A stretch of 39,984 nucleotides of DNA from contig NZ_MUHR01000018.1 in NCBI RefSeq assembly GCF_002105285.1, positions 1-39,984 of the forward strand. The letters are read 5' to 3'. Both the position numbers and the translations under genes were made by a program. The notes beneath the pieces are model-generated. The model searched no databases and was not told the DNA's origin. It saw nothing but the letters and a program-made list of their open reading frames with translations. Shown in pieces: positions 26,445 to 38,245 of this stretch (position 1 is the first letter of the stretch; every line of letters begins with the position of its first letter). The DNA is from Planktotalea arctica. GTDB taxonomy: Bacteria; Pseudomonadota; Alphaproteobacteria; Rhodobacterales; Rhodobacteraceae.

Positions 26445-26969
26445 TCAGTTCAGCGGAACACTGACGCGCAGCTGCAAGGTTTCCATACCTGGGTTGACCG
26501 GCGAAATACCACCATTAGAGCGATGATCGAAGGACAAACCCATGCGTAGCCCGCTCTTCGCTTGATAGCCAATTTCTGCACCGGAGCGGAACTCGAGATC
26601 ATGGCCCAAATCGGGGCCGCTACCCTGTACATAAACGCCGGGCATAAAGTGCAACTGCGCATATCCACCAACGCCAGAAGGGCGCTCCCAAAAGCGTGTA
26701 GTATGAGTCGCGCCAAGCCCTACCCAAACGTCATTGCTGTCCGTAACAGAGAGGCCAACAGCTGGCTGGAACGGCCCAAAAGCTGTACCCATATCGTAGC
26801 GTACATAGGCTTCTTGTCCGATGGACTTTTCTTGAAAAATTACATCACCAAATGAAAGCGATATCGCCTGTTGCGCGGGGCTGCGCGCAAGGCAGCCCAT
26901 CTTGCAATCATTGATCTGCATATCGGTGAGGCCCACTACAAAAAAAAGAACTGCTAGACGCCCATCCAT
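26445..26969 (-). CDS. pagL: Lipid A 3-O-deacylase, PagL family
   Basis: The 174-residue length suits an outer-membrane beta-barrel of the PagL family, which removes the 3-O acyl chain from lipid A. The C-terminal signature FDHRSNGGISPVNPGMETLQL carries the His-x-Ser pair (H149, S151) and a Glu (E163) twelve residues later, the same spacing as the known PagL catalytic residues. Alternating hydrophobic residues in the rest fit beta strands, and it ends SVPLN. The N terminus MDGRLAVLFFVVGL is a short hydrophobic stretch that may be a signal peptide, though the upstream Lys/Arg content is low. An AAGGGA ribosome binding site precedes the ATG by 9 bases. Its location links lipid A remodelling to the polysaccharide genes. 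Confidence 0.85.
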   Translation of the reverse strand: MDGRLAVLFFVVGLTDMQINDCKMGCLARSPAQQAISLSFGDVIFQEKSIGQEAYVRYDMGTAFGPFQPAVGLSVTDSNDVWVGLGATHTTRFWERPSGVGGYAQLHFMPGVYVQGSGPDLGHDLEFRSGAEIGYQAKSGLRMGLSFDHRSNGGISPVNPGMETLQLRVSVPLN

Positions 26970-28888: not shown

Positions 28889-29965
28889 ATGTCCCAAACC
28901 AGCCCCCGCCTGACGCTACCTTTCATTCAGCCTGCACAGGCCCAGAAACACGTCACCCATAATGAAGCGGTACGTGCCCTTGATATGCTGGTTCAGCTCT
29001 CTTTTGAGGATGACGCCCTCAATGCGCCGCCTCCGGCTCCAAGCGAAGGTGATTGCTATGTCGTGGCGAGCGGTGGCAGCGGTGTATGGGCCGCGCAAGA
29101 TGGCGCTATTGCCGCCTATCTTGACGGAGCATGGCAGTTTCATACCCCGCGCGCAGGCTGGCGCGGCTACGTGCAATCGCGCTCGGTGATGGTCGTGTTT
29201 GATGGCACCCAGTGGCACGAAATCAGCCCCAGCGCGCTACAAGCCGCCAGCCTGATCGGCCTTGGCATGCAGGCCGACGTAAACACACCGTTTGCAGCAA
29301 AACTGAACACAGCGCTTTGGAGCGCGCTTTATAGCGGGGATGGCGGCACAGGCAGCCTCATGCAGACTTTAAACAAAGAACAAGCAGGGGGCGATCTGGG
29401 TTTTGTTCTGCAAGAAAACTTTCAAACGCGCGCGCTAATTGGTCTCTTCGGCGACAACCGGTTGCGGCTTTCAGTAACGCCCGATGGCAGCACATTCAAC
29501 GATGCGCTGAGCATCGATCCCGCAACGGGTATCGCAAATCAACCCTCCCTGCCCCGCTTCAAAGCGCACACAAATTACGACAATTACATTGGCGTTGCGA
29601 GTTGGACCAAGCTTGGCATCAATGTCACCGAGTATAATGATCAAGCGTGCTTTGACGCGGCCACCAATCTGTTCACGGCCCCCGTAAATGGCACGTATCT
29701 CTTGGGCGGCGCGCTCACATACAAGACCAATGGCAATGCTGGTGCGCGCATGCAAGGACGGCTGGCGTTGAACGGGGGCGCTGCGATTTCCGGCGCCGTT
29801 GGCGAAATCTCTGGCCCGCATACATCAGAAACCACCACCCTGCCCTTGCAAACCCTCGCCCCCCTCAGCGCCGGCGACACAGTCGAGCTACAAGGCAACT
29901 TTCGCGCCTATGACGGCTACGCGATGGCGGGAGAGACCTGTTTTTGGGGCACCAAGATAGGATAG
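28889..29965 (+). CDS. DUF2793 protein with C-terminal C1q/TNF-like jelly-roll domain
   Basis: Residues 1 to about 110 match DUF2793 (RLTLPFIQPAQAQKHVTHNEAVRALD; GDCYVV; AAYLDGAWQFHTPRAGWRGYV), a domain seen in alphaproteobacterial phage-like and secreted proteins. A linker follows, then about 230-358 looks like a C1q-type beta-sandwich: FTAPVNGTYLLGGALTYK, LNGGAAISG and LSAGDTVELQGNFR. There is no obvious N-terminal signal peptide. Such proteins can be fibre-like or surface-binding modules; here the setting suggests a surface or matrix protein. The stop is followed directly by a parS-like palindrome. Domain calls are fairly confident; the function is unknown. Confidence 0.82.
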   Translation: MSQTSPRLTLPFIQPAQAQKHVTHNEAVRALDMLVQLSFEDDALNAPPPAPSEGDCYVVASGGSGVWAAQDGAIAAYLDGAWQFHTPRAGWRGYVQSRSVMVVFDGTQWHEISPSALQAASLIGLGMQADVNTPFAAKLNTALWSALYSGDGGTGSLMQTLNKEQAGGDLGFVLQENFQTRALIGLFGDNRLRLSVTPDGSTFNDALSIDPATGIANQPSLPRFKAHTNYDNYIGVASWTKLGINVTEYNDQACFDAATNLFTAPVNGTYLLGGALTYKTNGNAGARMQGRLALNGGAAISGAVGEISGPHTSETTTLPLQTLAPLSAGDTVELQGNFRAYDGYAMAGETCFWGTKIG

Positions 29966-29987
29966 AATGTTTCGCGCGCGAAACATT
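29966..29987. repeat. parS: parS-like palindrome, copy 1 (22-bp perfect)
   Basis: The 18-bp core TGTTTCGCGCGCGAAACA (29968-29985) is extended by AA/TT to 22 bp of perfect dyad symmetry. It starts at the first base after the DUF2793 stop codon. The core arms equal those of canonical chromosomal parS; I infer a binding site for the ParB encoded at 35783-36790. It could also fold as a hairpin in RNA but lacks a T-tract. Confidence 0.8.
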
Positions 29988-30056
29988 TGGCGACCTTGCT
30001 TTTAGGCCTGCTGAGCGCCATAGCTTTCGCAAGTTATCGCAGCAGGAGACACTCCC

Positions 30057-31058
30057 ATGAGCCGCACAATCCTTGTCACCGGCAGCGCCGGTTTTATTGG
30101 TTTTCACCTATGCCAGCGCTTGCTCGCGGACGGGTTTGATGTGATCGGCTTTGACGCGATGACCGATTATTATGACGTCTCTCTCAAGCACAAACGCCAC
30201 GCCTTGCTGGAAGCATCCGATCGTTTCACGCCCGTAATTGAACGCCTGGAAACTCCGGGGGTGATGGAGCAACTGCTTGCGGCGCATAAACCCGGCATGA
30301 TCGTTCATCTCGCGGCGCAGGCTGGTGTGCGCTATTCGATCGATGCGCCGCGCAGCTATGTGCAGAGCAATATCAGCGGCACGTTCGAGTTATTAGAAGC
30401 CGCGCGCCATCATACGCCAAAGCATCTGCTGATCGCCTCCACATCGTCGGTTTACGGCTCCAATACTGAAATGCCTTATTGCGAAACCCATAAAGTCGAT
30501 ACGCAAATGTCATTTTATGCAGCAACCAAAAAGGCGACCGAGGCGATGGCGCAAACCTATGCGCATCTTTATTCTATTCCCATCACCATGTTCCGCTTTT
30601 TCACCGTTTATGGCCCATGGGGGCGCCCCGACATGGCGCTGTTTAAATTCACCGATGCCATCCTGAACGATCGTGCAATCGACGTTTACAATCACGGCGA
30701 CATGCTGCGTGATTTCACCTATGTCACCGATCTGGTCGATGGCGTGCGCCGCCTGATGGATGCAATTCCAAGCGATACCCCCGTTAGCACCGCTGATAGC
30801 CTCTCGCCCATCGCACCTTGGCGCGCCGTGAATATTGGCAATGGCGCACCCACAAAGCTGAGTGATTTCATTATTGCACTTGAAGGTGTTCTCGGGAAAA
30901 CCGCTCAAAAGAATATGCTGAATATTCAGCCAGGCGATATGCCATCCACCTGGGCAGATACGACGTTGCTATCTGATTTAATCGGCCCATTGAATAAGAC
31001 AGAATTGAAGGACGGCGTGGCTAATTTTGTTGAATGGTACAACGCTGAGTATGTATGA
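30057..31058 (+). CDS. UDP-glucuronate 4-epimerase-like NAD-dependent epimerase
   Basis: The 333-residue extended SDR has TGSAGFIGFHL at the N terminus, DAMTDYYDVSLKHKR, the very characteristic HLAAQAGVRYSIDAPRSYVQSN, SSVYG, and the catalytic Tyr-Lys in YAATK. The TDYYD and AGVRYS phrases are diagnostic of the LpsL/Gla/UGAE group, which converts UDP-GlcA to UDP-GalA. An AGGAG ribosome binding site precedes the ATG. It follows the parS copy and precedes the H-NS-like gene. With ugd it completes UDP-GalA synthesis. Confidence 0.93.
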   Translation: MSRTILVTGSAGFIGFHLCQRLLADGFDVIGFDAMTDYYDVSLKHKRHALLEASDRFTPVIERLETPGVMEQLLAAHKPGMIVHLAAQAGVRYSIDAPRSYVQSNISGTFELLEAARHHTPKHLLIASTSSVYGSNTEMPYCETHKVDTQMSFYAATKKATEAMAQTYAHLYSIPITMFRFFTVYGPWGRPDMALFKFTDAILNDRAIDVYNHGDMLRDFTYVTDLVDGVRRLMDAIPSDTPVSTADSLSPIAPWRAVNIGNGAPTKLSDFIIALEGVLGKTAQKNMLNIQPGDMPSTWADTTLLSDLIGPLNKTELKDGVANFVEWYNAEYV

Positions 31059-31151
31059 TGTAGAAAAATTATGCCTATTTTCTAAAGATATCTTTTCATT
31101 TTAAAATTTTAGGTGTCTTAAAGAGCATCACTTATTCATGGGGATGAAATA

Positions 31152-31454
31152 ATGGACCTGAATACACTCACGCTCAAAGAGCTGAAAAAACTGCGTAAAG
31201 ACGTAGATAAAACGATCAATGATTTCGAGAACCGCAAAAAGCGCGAAGCGCTTGCGGAGCTCGAAAAGAAAGCCGCCGAGATGGGGTTTTCTCTCTCTGA
31301 TCTGACCTCCACAGGCAAAATCAAGACGGTAAGCGCGCCTAAATACGCCAATCCGGCCGATTCCAGCCAGACATGGACCGGCCGTGGCCGTATTCCACAG
31401 TGGATGAAAGCGCTTGAGGCCGCTGGCGGTTCTCGCGACGATACGCTTCTGTAA
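31152..31454 (+). CDS. H-NS/HvrA-family nucleoid-associated protein
   Basis: The protein has 100 residues, the usual length. The first 45 or so residues are highly charged and helical (oligomerisation coiled coil), and the C-terminal DNA-binding part has YANPADSSQTWTGRGRIPQWM, with TWTGRGR at 74-80 the core AT-hook-like motif. Such proteins bind AT-rich DNA in the minor groove and silence genes, including horizontally acquired ones. It stands alone behind an AT-rich leader (31059-31151) and converges on manC with a 15-base gap. It lies inside the parS-bounded interval. A role in controlling the local polysaccharide genes is plausible but unproven. Confidence 0.93.
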   Translation: MDLNTLTLKELKKLRKDVDKTINDFENRKKREALAELEKKAAEMGFSLSDLTSTGKIKTVSAPKYANPADSSQTWTGRGRIPQWMKALEAAGGSRDDTLL

Positions 31455-31469
31455 ATAGCCAAGCGGCGG

Positions 31470-32888
31470 TTATTTGCGTGAATAGACATCCTCGTAACGG
31501 GTGATGTCATCCTCGCCCAAATAGCTGCCGGTTTGCACTTCGATCAGTGTCATATTCACCTTGCCGCGGTTTTCCATCCGGTGGACCGCGCCAAGGGGGA
31601 TAAAGACCGACTGGTTTTCCGTGACCATTGTGACAGCGTCGTCGATGGTGACATGGGCTGTGCCCTCCACCACGATCCAATGCTCTGCGCGGTGCACATG
31701 GCTTTGCAGGCTAAGCTGGCTGCCCGGCGTTACTACAATGCGCTTCACTTGAAACCGTGGACCCATCGCAAGGCTATCGAACCAACCCCAAGGGCGGTGA
31801 TCGCGAGTGAACTGACTGGCTTGCTTTGCGCCCTTTACTTGCAATGCAGCAACGGCTTCTTTGACATCCTGCACACGGGAGCGATCTGCGATCAGCACCG
31901 CATCAGGCATGGCAACTGCAATGATATTTTCCAGACCAATGCCAACCAGCTCCTGCCCCTCGCTTGCGGACCACAAGAGCGAGCCCTCACAATCTACAGA
32001 CGTGGCAGCCCCCACCAGCGCAGTGCCGCGCTCGTCCTTATCGCTGATGCGCCGCAAGGCTTCCCAATCACCAAGATCGGACCAGCCCTCCGAAAAGGCC
32101 ATGACTTGCAGATTATCGGCCTTTTCCATGATCGCGTAATCAAGTGAAATCTTTTCGATCTGCCCAAAGGCGGCGGCGTTCAGCCGGCGAAAACCCAGAT
32201 CTTGTTCGGCGCCGTCCAAGGCCGCCTGCGCGTGGTCCATCATCTGCGGGGCATGCTGTGCGAAAGCGGCACACATCGTTTTCACAGAGACGAGAAAGAT
32301 GCCCGCATTCCACAGGAAGTCACCCGATGCGAGCATTTGTTTCGCGCGCGAAACATTTGGCTTTTCCACAAAGGACTTCAGCGGCTGGGGTAATCCCTCG
32401 GGATGATCATCGCCGCTCAGCTCCAAATAGCCATAGCCGGTCTCAGGGCGATCCGGCGTAATCCCGAAGGTCACGATAGAGCCCGCCTCAGCCGCGCTAC
32501 GCGCGGCCGCTACAGCCCCTCGAAACGCGTCTCCATCTGGAATCGCATGATCCGCTGGCGCAATAAGCATCAAACCATCGGGATCGATCGTTTGTAAGAA
32601 CAGGGCCGCAACCAGAACCGCAGGCGCCGTATCGCGCGGCTCCGGCTCAATGAAGATCGCCTCGGGCAGCACCCCTGCCCCGCCCATCTGTTCAGTTACG
32701 ATAAAACGGTAATCCTCGGACGTCAGCAAAACAGGACGACGAAATTCCTTGCCCGCCAAGCGCTTCACCGTGGCCTGAAACAGCGTATCGGGCTGGCCAA
32801 GATCGGCAAACTGTTTGGGATAGCTCTTGCGCGAGAGCGGCCAAAGGCGCGTGCCGCTGCCACCTGCAAGAATAACCGGAGTAATCAT
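31470..32888 (-). CDS. manC: Mannose-1-phosphate guanylyltransferase / mannose-6-phosphate isomerase (ManC/AlgA type)
   Basis: The protein has 472 residues from the ATG at 32888; the reading frame runs further upstream through the parS at 32971 but that part is not homologous. The N-terminal nucleotidyltransferase carries [29 protein letters not shown] and WNAGIFL. The C-terminal cupin has RPWGWFDSL and SLQSHVHRAEHWIVVEGTA, giving isomerase activity in bifunctional members. It makes GDP-mannose, precursor of mannose or GDP-fucose-type sugars. The coding sequence contains one exact parS core at 32338-32355, translated as part of NVSRAKQ within an otherwise normal FVEKP...ASGDFLWN stretch. Confidence 0.95.
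   Translation of the reverse strand: MITPVILAGGSGTRLWPLSRKSYPKQFADLGQPDTLFQATVKRLAGKEFRRPVLLTSEDYRFIVTEQMGGAGVLPEAIFIEPEPRDTAPAVLVAALFLQTIDPDGLMLIAPADHAIPDGDAFRGAVAAARSAAEAGSIVTFGITPDRPETGYGYLELSGDDHPEGLPQPLKSFVEKPNVSRAKQMLASGDFLWNAGIFLVSVKTMCAAFAQHAPQMMDHAQAALDGAEQDLGFRRLNAAAFGQIEKISLDYAIMEKADNLQVMAFSEGWSDLGDWEALRRISDKDERGTALVGAATSVDCEGSLLWSASEGQELVGIGLENIIAVAMPDAVLIADRSRVQDVKEAVAALQVKGAKQASQFTRDHRPWGWFDSLAMGPRFQVKRIVVTPGSQLSLQSHVHRAEHWIVVEGTAHVTIDDAVTMVTENQSVFIPLGAVHRMENRGKVNMTLIEVQTGSYLGEDDITRYEDVYSRK
32338..32355. repeat. parS: parS-like palindrome, copy 2 (inside manC)
   Basis: Exact 18-bp core TGTTTCGCGCGCGAAACA inside the manC coding sequence. On the minus strand its flanks read AAATG(core)AAAT in the same register as copies 3 and 4, so the flanks are conserved beyond what the manC protein requires. 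Confidence 0.8.
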
Positions 32889-32970
32889 AACCAACGCCCC
32901 TAAACTGAATTGCCTCCACTTTAGCGTCAAGGTTGGGCGAAAGTTTGGCAAGAGAGCTACATCAGATAAA

Positions 32971-32988
32971 TGTTTCGCGCGCGAAACA
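32971..32988. repeat. parS: parS-like palindrome, copy 3 (manC / phosphatase intergenic)
   Basis: Exact 18-bp core TGTTTCGCGCGCGAAACA with flanks AAA and AATG, identical to copy 4 over about 24 bases. It lies between the divergent manC and phosphatase genes, 83 bases upstream of the manC start, in the likely promoter zone. Confidence 0.8.
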
Positions 32989-33127
32989 AATGGCCGTCCT
33001 CCAACAGCCATAAATAGTCTATACGTCCTATCGCCTTTCAATCGTGTTGGGGTATTCTTGACGAAACATGGGTTCACCTCCCAAGGACGATTCAAGCTTA
33101 ATGACTGCGCCAGGAGCAAACACAAGC

Positions 33128-33904
33128 ATGTTGAAACGATTGCAATCCCTTTTCACGCGCTCGCCTGCAACCGCGGTGATGGCACCGCAAAGCAAGAAAA
33201 CCATCCTTTCACCCGATACACCATTTTACGCCATTGGCGATATCCATGGGTGTTTGATTGAAATGAACCTCCTTATCGAGACGATCGAGGCCGAAAACTC
33301 CGATGCAACCATCGTCTTTCTTGGCGATTACATTGATCGAGGAAGCAAATCAGCGCAGGTTCTGGCCCGCCTTCACGATTTGCAGACGCGCCACCCTAAC
33401 AGGATCATCTGCTTGATGGGCAATCACGAGCGCATGATGCTTGAGTTTATTGATGACCCGCTCGGGCGCGGTGCACGCTGGTTGGCCAATGGAGGTATGC
33501 AAACGCTAGGGAGCCTTGGAATCAAACAGAGCAAAGCCCGCCTCAAGGCCGAAGACGCGATGGAAATTGCCGATCAGTTGGAAGAAACACTTCCGGGCGG
33601 CATGCAAGACTGGCTGCGCGCCTTGCCGATGCTATGGTCAAATGGCAACGTGCACTGTGTCCATGCGGCCATGGACCCCTCAGCCTCACCCAAGAATCAA
33701 AAAGAACGCCATTTATTATGGGGGCACAGCGATTTTATGAAAATCCCCCGCGAGGATGCTGAATGCGTTATCTTTGGTCACGTCATTGTCCCTGCACCAG
33801 ATGTGCGCGATGGCCGCATAGCGATCGATACAGGTGCCTATAAAACCGGTCGCCTTACGGCGGTACATATTGATCAAAGCGGATGGCGCTTTCTACAAAG
33901 TTGA
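33128..33904 (+). CDS. PPP-family metallophosphatase (serine/threonine phosphatase-like)
   Basis: The protein has 258 residues from the ATG at 33128, chosen because AGGAG lies 11 bases upstream; ATGs at 33068 and 33101 are in frame. The three PPP metal-binding motifs are GDIHG (37-41), GDYIDRG (66-72) and GNHE (98-101), with later LLWGH and FGHV supplying more metal ligands. Bacterial members include protein phosphatases (PrpA/PrpE type) and diadenosine-tetraphosphate hydrolases. Similar genes occur in alphaproteobacterial polysaccharide loci, where they may reverse kinase control. No kinase is seen in this window. The fold is firm; the substrate is unknown. Confidence 0.9.
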   Translation: MLKRLQSLFTRSPATAVMAPQSKKTILSPDTPFYAIGDIHGCLIEMNLLIETIEAENSDATIVFLGDYIDRGSKSAQVLARLHDLQTRHPNRIICLMGNHERMMLEFIDDPLGRGARWLANGGMQTLGSLGIKQSKARLKAEDAMEIADQLEETLPGGMQDWLRALPMLWSNGNVHCVHAAMDPSASPKNQKERHLLWGHSDFMKIPREDAECVIFGHVIVPAPDVRDGRIAIDTGAYKTGRLTAVHIDQSGWRFLQS

Positions 33905-34054
33905 CGGAAAACAATTATATTTGATGCGTATTTGCTATGCGTACACCATAAATCACCACCACGGCCATTGCGGATTGAACACACAGCGGCCTGACTGCTA
34001 GGTGTAAATTTTTTGAAGACGCCAAAGTAACGGCACCATTTTAGGAAGACTTAT
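33905..34054. other. AT-rich 150-base region upstream of galE
   Basis: No gene seen. It begins with TTGACG at the phosphatase stop followed by AT-rich sequence, and ends with a good AGGAAG ribosome binding site 8 bases before the galE ATG. It probably contains the galE promoter and, being AT-rich, is a reasonable H-NS target; neither is proven. Confidence 0.35.
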
Positions 34055-35074
34055 ATGCGCGTTTTTGTAACCGGAGGGGCAGGGTTCATCGGCTCTCACA
34101 CGCTTGTCCAGCTTTTGCGCACAAACGCCGACATTATGGTCTTTGACAACTACTCCAACAGCTCTCCCGAAGCACTAAAGCGCGTCAAGCGTCTGGCCCA
34201 GTCCGATTTTTCTATCGTCGAAGGCGATATGTGCGATCCACGCGCCCTCGCATCCGCGATGCAGGGCTTCAAACCAGATGCCGTCATCCATTTTGCCGGG
34301 CTCAAAGCCGTTGGAGAGTCCGCTGAAAAGCCGCTCGACTATTACCGAACCAACATTGGCGGCAGCATCACACTGCTCGACGCGATGGATAAAGTTGGCT
34401 GCAAAAGGATCGTCTTTTCCTCGTCAGCCACCGTGTATGATCCAAACAAGCCCTTCCCGTTTACCGAAGACACCGCCCTTTGCGCGGCCAGCACCTATGG
34501 CAGGACCAAGCAGTTCATTGAAGAAATCATCCGCGACTGGAGCGCTGCAACGCCGGGCAGCTCGGCCGCTATTCTCAGATACTTCAATCCGGTAGGCGCA
34601 CATGCTTCGGGCGATATTGGCGAGGATCCTGTTGGCATTCCCAACAATCTCCTTCCCTATATCTCGCGCGTTGCGCATGGCAGCCTGCAAGAGTTGCAGG
34701 TCTTTGGAAATGAATATGCCACGGCAGACGGGACTGGAGCGCGCGATTATATCCACGTCGAAGACCTTGCCAGCGCCCATATCGCAGCGCTGGAGCACAT
34801 CACCTCGATGACGGGTTGCGATACGTTCAATATTGGCACCGGCACGGCAACAACGGTGCTGGAAATGCTGCGTGCCTTCGAGAAGGTCACAGGCAAGCCA
34901 ATCCCATATCGCATTGTCGGCGCACGCGCAGGCGATGTTTCCACAACCGTTGCCAATGTATCAAAGGCAGAGCGGGTTCTGGGCTGGAAAGCAAAATACG
35001 ATATTGATGCCATGTGCCGATCGATCTGGAACTGGCAAACCCGAAATCCGCGCGGCTACGAACCCCGCGGGTGA
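34055..35074 (+). CDS. galE: UDP-glucose 4-epimerase
   Basis: The 339-residue SDR has [11 protein letters not shown] at the N terminus, FDNYSNSSPEAL, HFAGLKAVGES, the catalytic FSSSATVY and YGRTK, and the GalE-specific LRYFNPVGAHASGDIGEDP. It interconverts UDP-glucose and UDP-galactose (or the N-acetyl forms). Length is normal. It is convergent with the sugar transferase gene, and the 38 bases between their stops hold parS copy 4. Its role is precursor supply for the exported polysaccharide. Confidence 0.96.
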   Translation: MRVFVTGGAGFIGSHTLVQLLRTNADIMVFDNYSNSSPEALKRVKRLAQSDFSIVEGDMCDPRALASAMQGFKPDAVIHFAGLKAVGESAEKPLDYYRTNIGGSITLLDAMDKVGCKRIVFSSSATVYDPNKPFPFTEDTALCAASTYGRTKQFIEEIIRDWSAATPGSSAAILRYFNPVGAHASGDIGEDPVGIPNNLLPYISRVAHGSLQELQVFGNEYATADGTGARDYIHVEDLASAHIAALEHITSMTGCDTFNIGTGTATTVLEMLRAFEKVTGKPIPYRIVGARAGDVSTTVANVSKAERVLGWKAKYDIDAMCRSIWNWQTRNPRGYEPRG

Positions 35075-35080
35075 GGCAAA

Positions 35081-35098
35081 TGTTTCGCGCGCGAAACA
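35081..35098. repeat. parS: parS-like palindrome, copy 4 (galE / sugar-transferase intergenic)
   Basis: Exact 18-bp core TGTTTCGCGCGCGAAACA, flanked by CAAA and AATG as in copy 3. It is the copy closest to parAB, about 0.7 kb beyond the parB stop, in the gap between two convergent stops. Confidence 0.8.
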
Positions 35099-35112
35099 AA
35101 TGAGGCTAGGCA

Positions 35113-35782: not shown

Positions 35783-36790
35783 CTATCCACGCTGCTTTAG
35801 CCACATCTGCAAAGCCGTATAAAGCTGCGGTGTAACGCGCTCGCCTTGCAAGGTGATCGAGTCTCCCTCTGTGCTCAGGTGAATTCCGGGAACAGGGGAA
35901 ATTGAGGGGGCCTTGGCCTTGACTGGCTTGGGCAGTGTAGGCTCTTTCTTTGTCTCTAAACCATTCTTTAGAGCCCTATTCAAAACATCCTGTTCGTCTT
36001 CGGCACTGGCTGGCTGCGCCGCGCTGAGCGCCGAGAGGATGCGGCGCGGTGCAGCGCTATCTGTGATTAGCGCCTTTGAGAGCTGCAACCCAATCCGCTC
36101 GCCCATCTGCGTGGGGAATTTCAGAGCATTGCCAAGTGTCTGCGCCACCGGAATAAACGATTTTATCTTGGAGCGTTTCGCGCGCGACGCATTCGAGAAA
36201 AGACTCTGCAAGGCGCTTTTGTCACTCTCGAACACTCCAGCTTCAACCGCCTTAACGACGATGCGCGCACGTTCAAAGTAGCTGAGCCCGACGCGAATTT
36301 CGTTTTCCTCGATCATCGCAATATAGGCGTCCGGCGCATCGCGCGGCGGGCTGATGATGGCATTGACGCTCTCGCGACCAATGGCGCGCAGAGCTTGAAG
36401 GCGGCGCCAGCCAGAAATGAGACCATAGCGGTGATCCCCAAGCGCCACCACTTCGATGGGTGTCTGCTGGCCACGCGCCTTGAGCGAGTTGCGCAGGCTT
36501 GCCATATCCTCGTCGTCCACAGGAACGCGATCGCGCACGAGATAGCTCTCGTCAATTTGAGTGAGCGCAATGGGCGTGATCATCCGCCCCTCGGCGCGCG
36601 CGCGGCGCAGGGTCTCGGAGAGTTCCTCAAGAGCGGCAGCGCTAGAAGCATCACCGGCCACGCGCGCGATCGGCGGGGCAGGGTGCGCAGAGAGGCCGGG
36701 CATGGACTTGGTTTCCAGCGGCATGTCGCCCCCAAATTCACGCGCCAGTTCTAGAGATTGTGCGGGGGCGAGACGTTTGCGTTTGGCCAT
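35783..36790 (-). CDS. parB: Plasmid partition protein ParB
   Basis: The protein has 335 residues from the ATG at 36790, which has GGAGG 8 bases upstream; an earlier in-frame start is unlikely. It has a basic N terminus (MAKRKRLAPAQ, probably contacting ParA), a ParB/Srx nucleotide-binding domain with GWRRLQA (127-133, equivalent to GxRRxxA) and ENEIRVGLS (162-170, equivalent to the ENxQR box), then helix-turn-helix DNA binding and a C-terminal dimerisation part. It should bind the parS palindromes and be segregated by ParA. It lies 54 bases downstream of parA. A 15-of-18 match to the palindrome lies within its coding sequence at 36174-36191. Confidence 0.93.
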   Translation of the reverse strand: MAKRKRLAPAQSLELAREFGGDMPLETKSMPGLSAHPAPPIARVAGDASSAAALEELSETLRRARAEGRMITPIALTQIDESYLVRDRVPVDDEDMASLRNSLKARGQQTPIEVVALGDHRYGLISGWRRLQALRAIGRESVNAIISPPRDAPDAYIAMIEENEIRVGLSYFERARIVVKAVEAGVFESDKSALQSLFSNASRAKRSKIKSFIPVAQTLGNALKFPTQMGERIGLQLSKALITDSAAPRRILSALSAAQPASAEDEQDVLNRALKNGLETKKEPTLPKPVKAKAPSISPVPGIHLSTEGDSITLQGERVTPQLYTALQMWLKQRG

Positions 36791-36844
36791 TAGAAAATCC
36801 TCCATGAAAGGGGGGCAGGAAAGCAAGCGGGGGTAAAGCGCGGG

Positions 36845-38245
36845 TTAAGCATCCGAACGCTGCTCTGTTTCTTGGGCCAGCTCGTCGCGGCGCCAGACTC
36901 CAAGCAGCAGTTCTTTGAACGCGGCATAGGTCGCATCAAATGTTTCGCGCCCGCGCACATAGGTCTCGCGGTTGAAATCACGGTAATCGGCTTCGTAGAT
37001 GCCGCTGACCTGCTCGCCGGCTTGTCCGATGAGGGCGGTGAAGTCTTGGCGATGGGGGCTAAGGGTGCGCCCGAGATAAGCCTGCATCAGCCCCGCGAGC
37101 TCTGCCTGCTGCGCACCGTCGTAACGCGTGACCACGGCGCGCACTGCATCCCACTCAAACGCGAGTTCATCGCGGCCAAGGGCACGGGCGGCGATGTTTT
37201 CACCCTCTTCAATGCTGGCGAAGGTGGAATGGAGCATGTCGAAGAAACGGCCCGTTGAGTCGAACTCCAGAAACGAGGCACCAAGGGGGACCAGCAGGAT
37301 GTCAGAGGCAGCAAGCCCGTTGATCGTGAGGTAGCCAAGGGCAGGGGGGGTGTCGATGAAGATCAAATCGTATTTATCGAGCACGCCATCCGCCTCAAGG
37401 CTCTCGGTGAGGGCATCCCAGAGCTTCCATCCCCGCGCCTGCATACGCCAGACAGGGATCTGGAATTCGGCCCAGTAGAGGTTGAGCTGCGCACCAATGA
37501 GATCAATGTTGGGCCAATGGGTCGGCTTGATCAGATCGTTTGCGGTGATGGTGAGCGCCTCGGAGAGGGTGTCATCAAGGGGCAGGGGTGCCTCGCCGCG
37601 ATCAAGGCGTTTCTGGTTCTCTGCGCGCAGGTGCTGGCCGTAATGGCGCGCAAGGAGGGGAAAGACAGTGCCCCATTCATCGTCAACCTTGCCGCCGAAG
37701 ATAGAAGTCATGGACCCTTGGCTATCGAGGTCCAGCACCAGCACTTTGTAGCCATCCAGCGCGGCGGACATAGCGAGATGCGCGGCGGTAGAAGTCTTGC
37801 CAACCCCGCCTTTGAAATTCGCCACAGCAATCATTTTCGCGGGCAGCCCTGCAGGGCGGTAGGGCTGGTATTCTTTTGCCTTGGAGCCACCTGAAGCGAA
37901 ATGGGCGCGCAGGCGCAACACCTCGTCGAGGGTGAACCATTTGGCGCCGCCCTCGGTTTCAGACGTGCCCTGCGGTAGCTCTGGGTTCTGCTTCAGTACG
38001 CGGCGGAAATGGGCCTGCGCCACCGGGATCAGATACTTGGTGATTTCCCATGTGGAAAAAAGACGTAACTGCTTGCGCCCGTCCTCGTTCATCCCGCGCG
38101 AGGCGAGATCATCGCGCCCCGAAGCGCAGGCCTTGGCGATGCTCGCAAAGCCGCTTGTGCTGACTGGACCCCCTAAAGCTTCAAGCGCTTTGTCAGGGTT
38201 AATGTTGAAATACGGAGGCTGCTCTGCCTTAGTGTCTTTGGCCAT
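36845..38245 (-). CDS. parA: Plasmid partition ATPase ParA (long, N-terminal DNA-binding extension)
   Basis: The 466-residue protein has a deviant Walker A KGGVGKT (145-151), Walker A' LVLDLDSQGS and Walker B LIFIDTPPALG, as in ParA/Soj ATPases. The first 135 residues contain a winged-helix-like region (WEITKYLIPVAQAHFRRVLK, TLDEVLRLRAHF), as in type Ia ParA proteins such as P1 ParA, which repress their own promoter. A GGGGA ribosome binding site precedes the ATG. It is first in a parAB operon divergent from repA, with the origin between them. It moves ParB-parS complexes over the nucleoid. Confidence 0.95.
   Translation of the reverse strand: MAKDTKAEQPPYFNINPDKALEALGGPVSTSGFASIAKACASGRDDLASRGMNEDGRKQLRLFSTWEITKYLIPVAQAHFRRVLKQNPELPQGTSETEGGAKWFTLDEVLRLRAHFASGGSKAKEYQPYRPAGLPAKMIAVANFKGGVGKTSTAAHLAMSAALDGYKVLVLDLDSQGSMTSIFGGKVDDEWGTVFPLLARHYGQHLRAENQKRLDRGEAPLPLDDTLSEALTITANDLIKPTHWPNIDLIGAQLNLYWAEFQIPVWRMQARGWKLWDALTESLEADGVLDKYDLIFIDTPPALGYLTINGLAASDILLVPLGASFLEFDSTGRFFDMLHSTFASIEEGENIAARALGRDELAFEWDAVRAVVTRYDGAQQAELAGLMQAYLGRTLSPHRQDFTALIGQAGEQVSGIYEADYRDFNRETYVRGRETFDATYAAFKELLLGVWRRDELAQETEQRSDA

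Follow-up and report, generated by a model that had tools for sequence, protein, structure and literature searches.

Description

What reads an 18-bp palindrome that recurs, letter for letter, among the polysaccharide genes of a roseobacter contig? Here, we describe TGTTTCGCGCGCGAAACA in contig NZ_MUHR01000018.1 of Planktotalea arctica (assembly GCF_002105285.1), where it occurs downstream of a parAB gene pair and is very probably the parS centromere by which a ParABS system partitions a RepA-type (PF10134) rhamnose plasmid. The window, by which we mean the whole stretch of DNA analysed, is the entire 39,984-bp contig C10 in a genome of 49 contigs, and no terminal overlap of 15 to 400 bases was found between its ends. 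All four exact copies that the first-pass annotation had reported are present:

29968..29985: parS copy 1 (predicted), exact, 2 bp past the stop of ORF 28889-29965 (DUF2793), with an orthologous exact copy in the congener G249 (L113:9704)
32338..32355: parS copy 2 (predicted), exact, inside the manC (mannose-1-phosphate guanylyltransferase) coding sequence (CDS), with a G249 ortholog carrying 1 mismatch (L113:12063)
32971..32988: parS copy 3 (predicted), exact, upstream of manC, aligning to the Planktotalea frisia site L115:7931
35081..35098: parS copy 4 (predicted), exact, 6 bp past the galE stop, with a 25-bp direct repeat AAATGTTTCGCGCGCGAAACAAATG common to copies 3 and 4

A fifth copy, with 3 mismatches, lies within parB at 36174. 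The four-copy palindrome is real and beyond chance: in 100 dinucleotide shuffles of the window, matches with up to 3 mismatches averaged 0.07, with a maximum of 1 and none reaching five, and an order-3 Markov model predicts 8e-6 exact copies of the 18-mer. The site ends lie 685, 2795, 3428 and 5798 bp downstream of parB. Elsewhere in the same genome, one exact 18-mer stands on each of contigs C5, C12 and C45, and two copies with 1 mismatch stand on C1 and C4. The first-pass annotation had held that many copies elsewhere on the chromosome would tell against a plasmid centromere; these three exact and two near copies go part of the way towards that, but such copies track ParB, as set out below. 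The chromosomal 16-mer TGTTTCACGTGAAACA has no match in the window at up to 3 mismatches and occurs exactly three times on C45, close to the chromosomal parAB.

Coupling of the palindrome to parB

The family search covered 248 genomes, one per genus, with ParB scored as present at E<=1e-30. A set of 60 loci, one ParB locus per genome, was drawn from among its strongest matches, and an overlapping set of 80 named loci holds the best 80 of 443 confirmed ParB relatives. Across the family the palindrome is coupled to parB. At up to 3 mismatches it stands in 57 of the 60 loci, with 101 sites (42 exact, 28 with one mismatch, 24 with two and 7 with three), most of them at most a few hundred base pairs from parB and a few farther off, while 40 shuffled palindromes of the same half-site composition yielded an average of 1.65 sites in the same DNA and none at one mismatch or fewer. 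Absence from related plasmids with this parAB type, which the first-pass annotation had named as another sign against a centromere, is not what we found: with up to 2 mismatches allowed, the palindrome is present in 71 of the 80 named relatives of this ParB. Site density in that set is 1.73 per kb in the 300 bp before parB and 1.96 per kb in the 300 bp after it, and drops to 0.035 and 0.042 per kb on the two sides beyond 1 kb. Genome by genome, sites at up to 1 mismatch were present in 54/92 genomes with ParB versus 9/156 without (Fisher p=2e-20), and exact copies in 34/92 versus 6/156; the exact 18-mer occurs in 40/248 genomes, the reversed palindrome occurs exactly in 0/248, and at up to 1 mismatch the reversed form was seen in one genome, G100. 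In Planktotalea frisia SH6-1 (G248), whose ParB is 71% identical, a site that aligns to copy 3 starts 21 bp after the parB match.

Adjacent parA and parB genes (matches to PF13614/TIGR03453 and PF02195/TIGR03454) and a repeated palindromic cis site coupled to parB across relatives, both features of a ParABS system, were found. The share of relatives with the site and the density peak at parB make it very probable that the 18-mer is the centromere of the plasmid ParB, as first proposed. From these sequence patterns we infer that ParB binds the 18-mer and that partition acts through it; the plasmid ParB would read a pair of GTTTCGC half-sites separated by a purine/pyrimidine centre of 2 bp, load at parS, spread and be pulled apart by ParA, following the established ParABS mechanism.

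Several observations weigh against this conclusion. No window site at up to 2 mismatches lies within 600 bp of parB; under the thresholds applied, no site was found in 3 of the 60 and 9 of the 80 loci; among the 57, a few loci have only weak or distant sites (L022, L027); and exact copies also occur away from any parB. The congener G249, moreover, keeps three sites (copies 1 and 3 exact, copy 2 with one mismatch) in the same polysaccharide genes on a 3.95-Mb chromosomal contig with no ParB at E<=1e-10, its distant profile match reaching 2.3e-9.

Sites of this kind, kept on a chromosome without this ParB, would also be expected if the palindrome were an operator through which a host or plasmid transcription factor controls polysaccharide genes, and the window sites do lie within or beside such genes, as does the site in the one contig of a viral collection that has it, near a manC-like gene. 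A reader of that sort is very improbable given that density across relatives peaks at parB and is >40-fold lower beyond 1 kb, and that one site in manC and two directly after stop codons are poor places for an operator. Scarcely credible is a set of hairpin or terminator-like repeats with no protein reader: several copies do sit just past stop codons (29968, 35081, and the copy after a murD-like gene in L006), but others lie inside coding sequences (manC, and hisG-like and pyrC-like genes), and in most relatives the sites stand beside parB. For the copies inside genes the terminator or hairpin reading was rejected.

Plasmid genes of the window

Judged by its genes, the window is a RepA-type rhamnose plasmid of a Planktotalea roseobacter, with a PF10134 replicase, parAB and a complete rml operon:

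35783..36790, - strand: parB, whose conserved MAKRKRL start lies at 36790 and is preceded by GGAGG (the ORF caller had placed a TTG start at 36826); PF02195 ParB_N 34.7 bits, TIGR03454 RepB 78.4 bits (cut-off 201.5)
36845..38245, - strand: parA, a Walker-type ATPase; TIGR03453 194.8 bits (cut-off 348.45), PF13614 105 bits
38641..39711, + strand: RepA-type replication initiator (PF10134 RPA), 334.5 bits
22943..26286, - strand: rmlA, rmlD, rmlB, rmlC rhamnose operon; TIGR01207, TIGR01214, TIGR01181 and TIGR01221, each above its curated cut-off

Also encoded on the contig are a fused mannose-1-phosphate guanylyltransferase gene (manC) and galE. The AlphaFold model of the window ParB (pLDDT 81.9, pTM 0.49) indicates a ParB fold, with an N-terminal ParB domain and a helix-rich DNA-binding region; its top Foldseek matches are Noc, ParB and KorB, at E of about 1e-9 to 1e-7 and with low whole-chain TM-scores of 0.2-0.3. 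Published roseobacter RepA-I plasmids resemble the window in their RepA-type replicase, rhamnose operon and polysaccharide genes, and parAB modules are reported for the RepA type (PMC4148982, PMC4148953); they differ in that no centromere is given in the accessible parts of these two papers. The window replicase is described here at the level of the RepA type.

Two further genes were recognized. A small protein with an H-NS C-terminal domain (PF00816, 57.7 bits) is encoded at 31152-31454, between a sugar epimerase gene and manC, and a PagL-like lipid A 3-O-deacylase (PF09411, 52.5 bits) is encoded at 26445-26969, adjoining the rhamnose operon.

Dispersal of the four sites

That the sites are spread through polysaccharide genes rather than sitting beside parB, as first described, holds for the window and fails as a family trait, for in most relatives a site adjoins parB. 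Between parB and copy 3 the window has a sugar transferase gene and the following block:

32993..35077: metallophosphatase and galE block between the 25-bp repeats; the corresponding place in congener G249 lacks it and has a single site instead of copies 3 and 4 (L113 12689-12714 aligns to both)

The direct repeats that flank this block, at 32968-32992 and 35078-35102, consist of parS plus A+T edges, and it is possible that parS served as a recombination junction there. Dispersal in the window looks secondary, because the site adjoins parB in P. frisia and three genes, two of them flanked by site copies, intervene in the window. In the simplest history, genes would have been gained or lost between site copies, probably via recombination, and would so have come to separate parB from the site that adjoins it in relatives. 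Since G249 retains the sites without a close ParB, such sites would persist for a time without ParB.

Motif anatomy and related parS sites

In the motif, a 2-bp centre is flanked on each side by a near-invariant GTTTCGC heptamer (inverted on the second side). In a matrix of 219 sites, T has a frequency of.82 at the first position, GTTTCGC (positions 2-8) of.99-1.00, and position 9 is G (.86) or A (.14), followed by the mirror image. Chromosomal parS, as seen in the genome's own copies, is two GTTTCAC heptamers with no spacer; these heptamers are named in PMC7022226. The resemblance to chromosomal parS that had been remarked on at first therefore stands for the half-sites, with one letter different, and two extra central base pairs are a fair description of the centre.

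The same one-letter likeness would be explained if the site were a chromosomal parS that had gained two base pairs at its centre and its ParB had descended from a chromosomal ParB, the centre expansion proposed in the first-pass annotation. We consider this quite improbable: descent from chromosomal parS is unsupported because the ParB is distant and the RepABC consensus already has this spacing. In a 22-protein tree the window ParB falls among plasmid ParBs and well away from two chromosomal ParBs (3.35 changes per column to each side of the root), with the caution that the tree joins long branches and leaves the deepest split between the plasmid groups unresolved. It also differs from the chromosomal ParBs by an 8-residue gap before the recognition stretch, and among its NCBIfam matches RepABC RepB (78 bits) outscores general ParB (48 bits). 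Neither mark of a chromosomal parS/Spo0J-type system was found, TGTTTCACGTGAAACA being absent from the window and the ParB belonging to another clade.

The published RepABC parS consensus is GTTNNNNGCNNNNAAC, with the spacing GTT-N10-AAC (PMC9040568). The inner 16 bp of the window site, GTTTCGCGCGCGAAAC, is the sole repeated GTT-N10-AAC palindrome of the window; it fits this loose consensus and fails the stricter GTTNNCNGCNGNNAAC. We infer that this plasmid has the spacing in common with related systems on other plasmids and did not acquire it by an expansion of its own. Two more likenesses to RepABC are that the window ParA and ParB best match the RepABC RepA and RepB models, and that several sites lie near the par genes, sites that in Rhodobacterales RepABC plasmids also occur within nearby ORFs (PMC9040568). 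The window is unlike RepABC in having no repC in an operon with repAB, its replicase being PF10134 RPA on the opposite strand, and in scores that stay below the RepA and RepB model cut-offs (78.4 bits against 201.5 for the RepB equivalog TIGR03454); nor are chromosomal copies mentioned in the accessible part of PMC9040568. RepABC RepB is itself on a long branch (3.6), and the tree is therefore no proof of descent from RepABC.

The organism's other two Par systems each lie near palindromes of their own. One is the chromosomal system described above, and the other, on C2, belongs to a replicon that looks DnaA-like by eye and has the palindrome ACCTTATCCGCGGATAAGGT twice upstream of its parB (L126 10287, 10608). 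In other species, at least 14 palindromes that share the core GTCCCCGCGGGGAC stand around another plasmid ParB (Alloyangia pacifica, L309 1678-4695) and are probably the parS array of that ParB. The parB gene for a more distant plasmid ParB, from Sulfitobacter W002 (40.6% identity across part of its length), contains AGGTTTCGCGCGCGAAACCT (L308:3341), and the core may therefore extend past the RepA-type clade.

Copies away from parB

Exact copies away from parB were examined in 57 contexts from 21 genomes, which are a part of all such places (8 of the 15 off-locus exact copies of G133 and 6 of the 8 of G092, for example) and include copies of one repeat that are not independent. Two sequences recur in their flanks. 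Exact TTAA-N7-TTAA boxes stand in 14 of 114 flanks (60 bases each) against 0.09 in AT-matched controls, the 14 coming from 9 genomes, and at one mismatch in 27 against 1.1. The sequence WATCAANNNNTTR, called IHF-like here after the IHF consensus, was found in 3 flanks against 0.05 exactly and in 28 against 6.9 at one mismatch. Beside the ParB-locus sites, TTAA-N7-TTAA was found in 0/437 flanks exactly and in 1 against 4.4 expected at one mismatch, and the IHF-like sequence is modestly enriched (7 flanks against 0.7 for exact matches and 23 against 8.6 with one mismatch). The TTAA-N7-TTAA box is the full site of CtrA (PMC6180460).

With its six central bases left free, the palindrome was found together with the box at 19 places in 12 of the 248 genomes. 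The centre is GCGCGC at 14 of these and a one- or two-base variant at 3, and the other two places look like chance; the 17 GCGCGC-type places fall in 10 genomes, 8 with ParB and 2 without (G108, G238). Some copies occupy orthologous places, the genes being named by eye from translations. One, exact in the window's genome and with a single mismatch in three others, lies within a hisG-like gene of Planktotalea relatives; another follows a murD-like gene in two species; and a third is located within a pyrC-like gene of four genera, one of which lacks ParB.

A composite of IHF-like motif, 18-mer and TTAA-N7-TTAA box, the box frequently 11 bp away, was noticed among off-parB copies (L001, L006, L007, L077-L096, L116, L117, L122, L225-L260), and some composites are 80-100-bp dispersed repeats (L085-L087, L093-L094, L226/L241). 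Plasmid or chromosomal copies of G075 and G238 (L056:5693, L089-L092) have, by eye, a neighbouring GGTCA...TGACC-type inverted repeat in place of the box.

Off-locus copies are defined as those outside the parB stretch of up to 20 kb, and may include sites elsewhere on the same or other plasmids; where a copy is called chromosomal, this is judged from contig size or from genes recognized by eye. At up to 1 mismatch they occur in 25/61 genomes with a strong ParB (105 copies) versus 9/156 without (18 copies; p=2e-9), a comparison that leaves out 31 genomes with a weaker ParB, six of which hold 13 copies unassigned as on or off the locus. The centre of an off-locus copy tends to agree with that of the plasmid parS in the same genome. 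Where the plasmid centre includes GC, 45 of 65 such copies are exact, and where it is solely another (AC, GT, AT, or AG in one genome), 4 of 32 (p=1e-7), with G000, G006 and G107 excluded and the copies not independent. These two tests, and the comparison of 54/92 with 9/156 genomes above, treat genomes or copies as independent, with one genome per genus as the sole control for kinship. Phaeobacter porticola (G075) has 0 exact and 12 one-mismatch copies, and the two copies found in a 400-kb sample of its chromosome share the AC/GT centre of its plasmid site. G149 likewise has 0 exact and 12 one-mismatch copies, counts that suggest a centre variant, with none in the 400 kb of chromosome sampled. 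Dinoroseobacter shibae (G035) departs from the rule, with an AT centre of its own and 3 of 8 off-locus copies exact.

Speaking against a link to ParB, nine ParB-less genomes hold copies, among them G238 and G106 (99-100% complete), and so do the congeners G249 and G251, which have no close ParB. These genomes would be accounted for if a chromosomally encoded host factor, and not ParB, read every copy on and off the plasmid. A profile search of ten genomes for a ParB paralog agrees with that, giving, outside the window's genome, only distant matches in 7 of 9 (best E 1.8e-12) and none in G251 and G119; the match in G252 covers residues 221-304 only, close to the end of a contig, and may be a truncated part of a true ParB. 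We hold such a host factor to be unlikely, since off-locus copies are far commoner where ParB is present and their centre tends to match the plasmid parS.

A more tentative reading, which we put at somewhat less than an even chance, is that the ParB of RepA-type roseobacter plasmids has two co-evolving sets of targets: the parS next to the parB gene, and chromosomal sites that number up to about 15 and often lie near TTAA-N7-TTAA (CtrA-type) boxes and IHF-like sequence. On the chromosome ParB might serve as a regulator, play a Noc-like part or anchor the plasmid to the nucleoid, tying plasmid carriage to the host cell cycle or motility regulon. Noc of Firmicutes is a ParB-fold protein with palindromic NBS sites dispersed over the chromosome. 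The likeness lies in a ParB-fold protein and a scattered palindrome, and Noc structures are the top fold matches of the window ParB; the difference is that here the protein is plasmid-encoded, with the same site on the plasmid, and the fold match reflects the common ParB fold. For a Noc-like chromosome-wide role, in which the ParB-like protein would bind chromosomal sites with an effect on division, the analysis covered the distribution of the sites and the covariation of their centres.

Significance

Neither the 18-mer nor its 16-bp core was found in the literature searched, a search that most subscription papers lay outside. Among the papers listed for KorB in relation to host chromosomes, for plasmid ParB in relation to chromosomal sites, and for a palindromic interspersed repeat with IHF and CtrA, we found nothing on this element. 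A RepABC plasmid of Dinoroseobacter shibae is reported to repress the CtrA regulon, and no such site is named in the accessible part of that report (PMC9426580). The palindrome names a predicted centromere for a widespread class of roseobacter plasmids, the RepA-type rhamnose plasmids, and could serve for compatibility typing as RepABC palindromes (PMC5613091) already do. The copies away from parB, found mostly where ParB is present, hint at an undescribed link between plasmid and chromosome. If the chromosomal copies are indeed ParB targets, a plasmid segregation protein would have chromosome-wide sites that co-evolve with its centromere, and this would offer a concrete, testable route for plasmid action on host physiology.

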